This document shows positions 33,701-36,700 of a DNA stretch of 64,000 nt, in pieces. The DNA is taken from assembly GCF_051622035.1 (NCBI RefSeq), contig NC_135357.1, positions 17,640,256 to 17,704,255 of the forward strand. Direction: 5' to 3'. This DNA comes from Arctopsyche grandis. Lineage: Eukaryota > Arthropoda > Insecta > Trichoptera > Hydropsychidae. Under the pieces are notes generated by a model. The model was not told the DNA's origin and did no database searches. It saw nothing but the letters and a program-made list of their open reading frames with translations. The number at the start of each line of letters is the position of its first letter. Within the stretch, counting starts at the first letter, position 1. The position numbers were made by a program, and so were the translations under genes.

Positions 33701-36700
33701 GCTGATTAATCGTCTAAAAATAAGGACAATATGAAACTTGATACTTGCAAGTGTTGACATTTGAAATACATAGCATATATGTAGGTTTAGCCTTCTTACA
33801 AATCATCAATTTTACATAAATTTAGACGATACTCACACTTCACAATCCGATTTAAAAAAAAACGAACACATAACAACGCATCTAAGAGTAAAGAATATCA
33901 TCATCAAGCTAATAATATCTCAAATGAGACAAAATCTTTATAGTTTTATACATTTTATTACAACGAAAATTTTTGAAATGGAGACTATCAAGAGACGTAA
34001 ATTTGAATACGTAATGCAACAACCCAAGACATATCAACTCTTGCATCTTATTATGCAAAGGAACATCTACAGAAGGCTAAAAAACCTGAGGCAATAATTC
34101 AATCAAAGCACCGCTGCACTGTTTTCCAGGCAGTCGCTAGCAAAATAATCATCAAAAAAATCATTGCCAACATGCGGTAGCAGATGAGTCACTAGCAGAA
34201 GAAGAGAAATGGGGAGACCACTAACAATATTCCATTAAGTAAAAAATACAACCCTTCATATGACGGGCCGAAAACCAGACTGGTACAAGTGACATTTTTA
34301 AAAAAAGCTGGTTTAAGTGCTAAAATAATAGCATTTCATATATGCTATTATGTTAGCTCTAAGACCAGATTTTTTTTAAAAATATCACTTGTACCAGTCT
34401 GGTTTTCAGCCCGTCATATATAACCGTTGACATTTTCATGACTCAATCAATCATCCCTAATCTACATACTTGGTAATCTCCAACCAAACTATTTTCTCAA
34501 TTACGAACCTTTCCAAAACCAAACAGACACAAACTCAATGAAATAATAATAAAAAATCGATAATTGATGTCGAACACAACGAAGTGTTACAAGATACGCA
34601 TATTTACAATCAGTATTGGCTTAAGATACGGTTTACAATATATGGATAAAAACTTATCATTAACAGTATTTTGAAGACTGCAACTTTTCGAATCGTTTTT
34701 TATATAATGTCAAAGCAAACTTATACAATAAGCAACAGTATATGACACATCTACTACCGCTTACTATTGTCAAATCTGACTTAACATTGTACAAAACACG
34801 CTCAAATCAAAACGCAAAAATCAAAATAGGTCACATCATACATTGAAACTATAGCACGTGAGATTTCAACAGAGCCCATTCAAACAACATCAGCAACAAT
34901 AATCCATATACAATCATTGAATTCTATACCATTTTGGCGGAATAATCGACACACATCACATTCTAGGCAAGTTCTTGACACGTTCGACTAGTGCAACAAT
35001 TGCACGTGCACACACACACACACACACACACACACACATACACGTGGACACGTGCCACAGTCGGATTGTGAAGTGCGAGTTGGATATGAAGAGGCAGCCT
35101 GTTGAATGTGGGGCGGCTGCCGGTGTGGCTTGTTTACGGCGAGGGGGCGTAACCGTCATCGGCACGGCGGGCTTCCGGGAGCGCGGGGGCGCACGCTCGG
35201 GGCCCGCGGAGCACCCCGGGGGCATGGGAACACGCCCCCGCGCCCCCCGGCCGCTGTCAAACGTCAAATAAGATGGGAAAACCGGGACATACCTGGCCGC
35301 AGCCGGCCGCTCACTGACTGACGTGTGTCGGCTGTGGTAGCGAACGAGCCGCACCACGACAGGGGTCACCAACATTGACACGCCTCGAATCTGTCCAACA
35401 GACGTGCTCATCTGTCATCTGTCACCTGTCATTAGTGACAGTCGAGCCTTCTTATTTGATTGCAAAGCGATTCGACTGTGTATACGTCCGAAATTAGTAA
35501 AGAATTGTCAAAGAAATAAAAATGCATCGATTCGAATTTCGAATTATGCCGTATCGGATTTGAAAAGGACGTTGACTTTCGACCATAGCCTGTTTGATGC
35601 ACTTGTATTATGAAGCTTCTAAAGTGTCAAAGTTCAATTCGGAATTGTGGGGAATTGTGAAAGCTCTCCGGTTGAATAAAACGGGTCTCCGTCACGGGCC
35701 CGAATGTGAAACGCCCGAAAAAGCAAAGATCGAAAATCGAAAGATCTTAAGTCGAAAGATAAAAAAAACTTCATCTATTGTTACTACGTACATAGATAAA
35801 GTAAAAAAAGGGTGCATGGTAAACGGAACATACTCACTTAATTTGCGCGAGCAGGATACAACAGGAACAAGAGGAACAGGCTTTTCCTCTTGTTCCTGTT
35901 GTATCCTGTTCGCACAAATTAAGTGAGTATGTACCGTTTACCATGCACCATATTTTTATCTTTCAATTTTCGATCTTTGCGTTTTCGGGCGTTTCACATT
36001 CGGGCCCGTCACGGAGACCGGAATAAAACTGCCGTGCGATTTTTAAAAAAGTCTCAAAGTCGAAATGAATTGCAGGCTGATTTTAAAAAAAAATTTCAAT
36101 TTCAATTCAAAACGTTCGAGGACAGAGAAATGTTATATTAATAGAAGTGGCTTTAGGCGTCATATTGTTATCAAGTGACGATTGTCCACAGACAATCCTA
36201 AATAATTTTAGCATCAGTCGTATTTGATGCTTGGTGCTCGACGTACGTCCGATAAAAACTTATCTGGTTATTTATATTACTCGCAAGATGGGCAAGCATC
36301 GGTAAAATTGCACAATGCATTGAAAAACACACAATAAACAACATGGGATATATGTTTATAAGTAAATTGATCGGATTGTATTCCGTGCCTTGTAGCGTAT
36401 TTATAGAGACGTGCCGCGTAATATTGACAACAATTATTTATTCGTAAGGGCCCTTCTATTATTATTACATGTCTCTGTTCGAGAAGGTATAAAAATTCTC
36501 TAATAAGACTTAACTGCTGTCTGATTTTAAAAAGTCTCAAATTATGTACAATTCGAAACCTTTGAAAAGCTATGAAAGTTCTCTAGTTGAAAATAACTTC
36601 TGGCTGATATACATAAGTCTCAAATTTCATTTAGAAATGTTTGAAGAATTAAGAAAGTTCTTTAGATGGAATATAGTGCAGACTGATTTAAAAAAAAAGT

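Follow-up and report, generated by a model that had tools for sequence, protein, structure and literature searches.

According to the published descriptions available, DINE-1 elements and HINEs carry a stem-loop after the 3′ subTIR (PMC2374699; PMC4067079), and the partial inverted repeat adjoining the 5′ subTIR in elements of DINE-1 type is a feature that has been described repeatedly. Shortened copies are familiar as well: truncated Helitrons in general are known (PMC7492417; PMC5148889), truncated copies are mentioned in the account of Cg_HINE (PMC7492417), and of the 41 Helitron2_Cv copies described, with lengths of 136-767 bp, eight are complete (PMC3630058). The locus analyzed here lies in a 64,000-nucleotide stretch of Arctopsyche grandis DNA, referred to in its entirety as the window, and consists of a 35-bp hairpin which, judged by its sequence, looks like the 5′ end of DINE-1/HINE-like (Helentron-associated) elements. 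Two solo copies of this hairpin look like truncated copies that keep little beyond the 5′ end, and not like a new type of tiny mobile element.

The first solo copy is the following feature:

35768-35802, minus strand: solo 5′ module 1, comprising subTIR, spacer and partial inverted repeat, in the left arm of foldback copy 2.

The module reads ACTTCATCTATTGTTACTACGTACATAGATAAAGT and is present as the preliminary description had it, although its real range begins one base further left than the 35769-35803 given there. Its edge is ambiguous because the module sits in an A run, the plus strand carrying A8 at 35761-35768 (including the first base of the module) and A7 at 35803-35809. When the 35-mer was searched without gaps at up to three mismatches, a single match was obtained in the window, solo 1 itself, and none in 100 dinucleotide shuffles; the other module copies differ by indels and are missed by such a pattern. 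Its two arms are more frequent, the outer 12-mer ACTTTATCTATG having eight exact matches in the window and the inner 12-mer AATAGATGAAGT five, against 0.01 expected in each case. One of the eight outer-arm matches, at 29028, was not counted as a module: positions 29028-29039 hold an exact ACTTTATCTATG copy on the minus strand followed by TTTTT (0.01 expected by chance in the window), which was considered as a further stub and dropped, because a preceding T run and the second arm are both missing. The exact module and 3′-tail patterns gave no match in viral contigs or prokaryote genome contigs, as expected for insect DNA.

Solo 1 lies within another transposon, of which two copies were compared:

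14222-14604, unstranded: foldback copy 1, the paralogous empty site, with an unbroken A8 at 14313-14320.
35684-36019, unstranded: foldback copy 2, which contains solo 1.

At the insertion point copy 1 reads GAT-A8-GGG, whereas copy 2, with GAT-A8-(34 bp)-A7-GGG, is 41 bp longer. The two copies are identical at 272 of 293 ungapped positions, and the module appears in their alignment as a 41-bp gap, beside other gaps of 14, 48, 14, 14 and 2 bp; the right arm of copy 2 is also without the module. Since the flanks of the two foldbacks differ, as do their candidate target duplications (CGTACATTTTATAT, 14 bp, and GAATAAAAC, 9 bp, one per foldback), copy 1 represents an independent empty site. The initial observations of a lone, tiny module inside another transposon and of an uninterrupted A run at the same place in copy 1 are both borne out, the A8 being kept in a separate insertion. 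The outer arms of the foldback measure 97 nt and are 91% complementary in copy 1, and 14-bp internal indels distinguish the two copies. Near copy 2, positions 36600-37513 contain diverged repeats (AAGTCTCAAATTTCA...GTTTGA). A 124-bp repeat, possibly another short mobile element, occurs at 27943-28066 and 36123-36246 in opposite orientation and with 95% identity.

The same hairpin is found at one end of three longer elements, listed here with one example of each subTIR:

61143-61958, minus strand: full HINE-like element of 816 bp, 5′ end at 61958.
56172-57030, minus strand: full HINE-like element of 859 bp, 5′ end at 57030, AATTTATC subtype.
20133-21255, minus strand: full HINE-like element of 1123 bp, 5′ end at 21255.
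61940-61953, minus strand: example 5′ subTIR (ACTTTATCTATGTA) of the 61143-61958 element, whose partial inverted repeat lies at 61920-61931.
61170-61183, minus strand: example 3′ subTIR of the 61143-61958 element (TACATAGATAAAGT), separated by 21 bp from the terminal T run.

The module had been described as the 3′ end of these three 0.8-1.1 kb elements; it does end them on the plus strand, but the layout of subTIRs and T runs, read on the other strand, makes this end the 5′ one. On the minus strand the elements start with TTTTT-ACTTTATCTATGTA (AATTTATC... in the element at 56172), the 5′ subTIR adjoining a T run, and a spacer then leads to the partial inverted repeat AATAGATGAAGT (AATAGGTGAAGT in the element at 56172). 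Their 3′ ends consist of TACATAGATAAAGT, followed by 21 nt and the terminal T run. An inverted copy of the outer arm lies near the opposite end in all three, exact over 15, 13 and 14 bp; for chance expectation, the first 40 and last 63 bases were compared in 19,699 random window segments of 0.8-1.2 kb, and inverted end-to-end words of at least 12 bp occurred in 0.16% of them. The 37-bp 3′ tail has four matches in the window at up to two mismatches, and none in 100 shuffles. At least five Ts precede each of the five 5′ ends, and at least six Ts follow each of the four 3′ ends. Within the elements, GTCA/GTCT occurs at a distance of 138-194 bp from the 5′ end; two of them have long GT runs and the third a short TGTGTGTCAG. 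In the one at 56172, GT runs together with GTCTG lie at about 135-198, counted from the 5′ end. None of the three contains a true tetranucleotide array of GTCY. Central units of the AACCGGAAGT type are spaced 131-150 bp apart in all three, one unit carrying a base change.

The 5′ subTIR and the partial repeat can pair in stems of 9-11 bp (G-T allowed) across a spacer of 12-17 nt at all five 5′ ends, both solos included, and the internal inverted repeats first attributed to the module are real. Folded as single-stranded DNA, solo 1 reaches -4.7 kcal/mol (z -2.64) and solo 2 a z of -1.01, while the 5′ modules of the elements at 20133, 61143 and 56172 give z values of -4.30, -2.52 and -0.07. As the element at 56172 and solo 2 fold no better than shuffles, the signal may lie in something other than the fold. 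At the 3′ ends, a candidate stem of TGGGT/ACCCG type (5 bp with wobbles) is present in three of four and absent in the element at 61143; the folding z values of the four ends are -0.31, 0.14, 0.53 and 0.02, none of which beats shuffles. The partial repeat AATAGATGAAGT and the 3′ subTIR CATAGATAAAGT are alike at 10 of 12 positions, and a T run adjoins the hairpin in the long elements at 61143 and 56172 but is missing in the one at 20133.

With respect to class, the elements display the arrangement of HINEs: subTIRs of 11-15 bp, of which the 5′ one is almost terminal and the 3′ one lies further in; a microsatellite in the 5′ block with variable central repeats; and T-rich sites with Ts at both ends and no clear target duplication, the one paralogous empty site being that of a solo. 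Two other DNA transposon classes were considered and rejected. A canonical Helitron would have 5′-TC and CTRR-3′ ends and insert between A and T, whereas the ends here read TTTTTACTTTATC... and ...CCGAATTTTTT; a cut-and-paste MITE would have terminal inverted repeats at its two extremities, whereas 21 bp separate the 3′ inverted repeat from the terminal T run, both in the three long elements and at the 3765 end of a shorter copy (below). No stop-to-stop ORF of at least 110 aa overlaps the three long elements. The longest such ORF in the window has 194 aa, and the Pfam scan covered five of the 21 ORFs listed. Elsewhere in the window, the minus-strand ORF at 29537-30121 contains a PDZ domain (Pfam E 1.5e-17) and is presumably discs-large-like; a search of the window against Rfam at gathering thresholds returned one tRNA; and positions 53551-53718 hold a 12-bp unit (GTAGTATTCTTG) in about a dozen tandem copies.

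Shorter members of the family are as follows:

41863-41901, plus strand: solo 5′ module 2, 39 bp, with similarity to long elements over about 41858-41906, from TTTTT to GAAGTTTTGT.
45892-45938, minus strand: third 3′-truncated stub, with the inverted-repeat arm and about 35 bp of body, the outer subTIR arm lost.
3463-3765, plus strand: 5′-truncated copy that keeps the 3′ subTIR, 3′ tail and terminal T run.
55879-55998, minus strand: internal body fragment of the same HINE-like family (profile E 2.5e-5; best single-element E 0.58).

An nhmmer profile built from the three long elements yielded nine window matches at E <0.01, namely the three elements (one in two pieces), 3463-3765, solo 1, solo 2, 55879-55998 and 45892-45938. 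The lone copy previously noted at 41865 and the partial one at 45927 are thereby recovered as 41863-41901 and 45892-45938. Solo 1, solo 2 and the stub have profile E values of 1.3e-6, 2.6e-6 and 0.0026, the best single-element values being weaker (0.00024, 0.00026 and 0.31, respectively). Neither solo in the window, at 35768 or at 41863, has beside it a 3′ end remnant or recognizable body sequence, the degraded body that the preliminary description had counted against a lone module, in nhmmer searches at E up to 10. The two solos are not identical, solo 2 having AATTTATC and a loop 4 bp longer. Its best match is the element at 56172 (47/49), with which it has AATTTATC and the longer loop in common, while solo 1 is closest to the element at 61143 (42/43), and each solo matches the remaining long elements less well. 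Because the best matches are to different long-element subtypes, the solos are probably separate derivatives, although informative sites are few, and on this comparison they probably reflect two separate truncations.

The 3′ junctions of these short copies fall close to T runs of the element. That of solo 1 lies inside GAAGTTTT (element position 42) and that of solo 2 after GAAGTTTTGT (element position 49); the stub at 45892-45938, which agrees with the element at 56172 at 39 of 47 positions, ends ...GATTTT beside a T-rich flank, its junction after GATTTT corresponding to element position 74-79. All three are at, or 2 bases past, an element T run, and two are just past the hairpin. If ends were evenly spread, two stubs within about 9 nt of the hairpin base would be found roughly once in 8,000, a value that is post hoc arithmetic; the stub sample is biased, since any stub well below 35 bp in length would escape notice.

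On balance, we lean towards reading the module as the terminal 5′ part of a HINE, a non-autonomous Helentron, from which stubs would be made by premature rolling-circle termination. The anatomy, the empty site of one solo, the junctions and the two subtypes are seen directly in the sequence, whereas we infer the enzyme, the rolling-circle movement and the early stop as the origin of the stubs. HINEs are expected to be mobilized by an autonomous Rep/Helicase/endonuclease Helentron that has matching ends. A rolling-circle transposase acting from another genomic locus would nick the T run before the 5′ subTIR and peel off one strand, the 3′ subTIR and its T run being the usual stop. The partial repeat AATAGATGAAGT, which in most copies precedes a T run, may sometimes be taken as the terminator, and such an early stop would insert only the 5′ end of about 35-40 bp into a T-rich target. 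In the published Helraiser experiments, the vectors that yielded premature internal 3′ ends had either no hairpin or no right end, those ends carried no palindrome, and new 3′ ends are reported for 39 of 395 recent bat Helitron copies, some of the 39 being ascribed to deletion, mutation or neighboring elements (PMC4778049). Given these vector conditions and mixed causes, the work is a precedent for loose 3′-end choice and not for this particular repeat as a stop signal. Counted against premature termination are the small material (two solos and one longer, weak stub), the weak 3′ hairpin, the fact that no autonomous partner is known here, and the circumstance that deletion after insertion would yield the same sequence.

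Deletion between T runs is therefore a serious rival to premature termination at n = 2 solos; we regard it as possible, if clearly less probable. A full HINE-like element would have been inserted and then lost the stretch from the T run after the hairpin (GAAGTTTT) to the terminal T run or one in the target. The position of all three stub junctions relative to T runs is in agreement with such an event, and as each long element (816-1123 bp) contains 24-26 runs of at least four Ts, short direct repeats for deletion are plentiful. Two of the three stubs, however, end at the same one of about 24 T runs, the one beside the hairpin, and neither solo retains a 3′ end remnant, both arguments being weak at n = 2; moreover, solo 2 ends past the hairpin-adjacent T run (GAAGTTTTGT).

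We consider it unlikely that the module is a minimal mobile unit, a stretch of 35-39 bp with both end signals and T runs outside it that is copied by Helentron machinery. The exact insertion of solo 1, with its empty site, would suit such a unit, as would the resemblance of the inner arm to the 3′ subTIR. The solos are nevertheless closest to different long elements, as if each had been cut from one, and this disfavors the minimal unit with its own terminal inverted repeat that was suggested at the outset, few as the informative sites are. It is similarly doubtful that the 5′ subTIR and partial inverted repeat amount to a complete replication unit of 35-40 bp with a second terminator, in which case solos should arise at a high rate across the genome and some should move again; if so, they would be among the smallest mobile units known. 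The other initial suggestion, a retrotransposon 3′ end whose element was nearly all lost through target-primed reverse transcription, is very improbable: the plus-strand order of module and A run, the truncation on the opposite side and the A-run matches at the junctions would agree with a LINE/SINE retrotransposon, but such an element should have target-site duplications and lack inverted termini. Here, inverted subTIRs stand at both ends of all three long elements, and the HINE layout extends to both ends, A runs being present at the far end as well. The words that the flanks have in common measure 6-8 bp and almost all belong to A runs; an all-A duplication is possible, and no clear duplication goes beyond these words.

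With two solos, the finding adds modestly to what is already a well-known type of element. Should solo 5′ ends prove common, with junctions clustering at the partial repeat, they would provide natural evidence for Helentron stopping points; a role of this repeat as a stop signal is not proposed in the portions of the DINE-1, HINE and Helitron literature covered. Annotators should also bear in mind that a hairpin of 35 bp within an A/T run may represent a Helentron stub. No solo 5′ ends of 35 bp are reported among the matches listed for the open-access literature, as far as titles and abstract beginnings go, or mentioned in the covered part of the Cg_HINE account (PMC7492417), and a literature text search with three 12-mers listed one paper, an unrelated camel review.

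Compared with the described systems, the elements show likenesses as well as differences. In the DINE-1 elements of Drosophila, also named INE-1 or mini-me, 3′ stems measure 7-11 bp, against at most 5 bp with wobbles here and none at one of four ends, and mite HINE 3′ subTIRs lie about 38-60 bp from the end, against 21 bp and a T run here (PMC2374699; PMC4067079). DINE-1 proper has a conserved core of about 90 bp with (TA)4, and the likeness drawn here is from its described layout. Helraiser/Helibat offers a rolling-circle model with loose 3′-end choice, as proposed for this locus, although its canonical ends (5′-TC, CTRR-3′, target between A and T) are absent here (PMC4778049). Helitron2_Cv of Calliphora vicina resembles the present elements, by description, in that 11-bp subTIRs, the 5′ one adjoined by an inverted repeat, are combined with GTCY-rich repeats; it also has a 3′ hairpin, a feature that is weak here (PMC3630058). 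Cg_HINE of the Pacific oyster is likewise compared by description: its subTIR-to-repeat spacer is 1-12 bp, against 12-17 here, and all its examined 3′ palindromes can form stem-loops, in contrast to the weak 3′ hairpin of this family, whereas the microsatellite, central tandem repeats, T-rich targets and lack of target duplication are common to both (PMC7492417). At its 5′ end, a subTIR of 11-12 bp with a complementary inverted repeat of 7-12 bp reproduces the design of the module (PMC7492417), and with both this unit and the overall layout matching, the module appears to be a standard HINE-type 5′ end.
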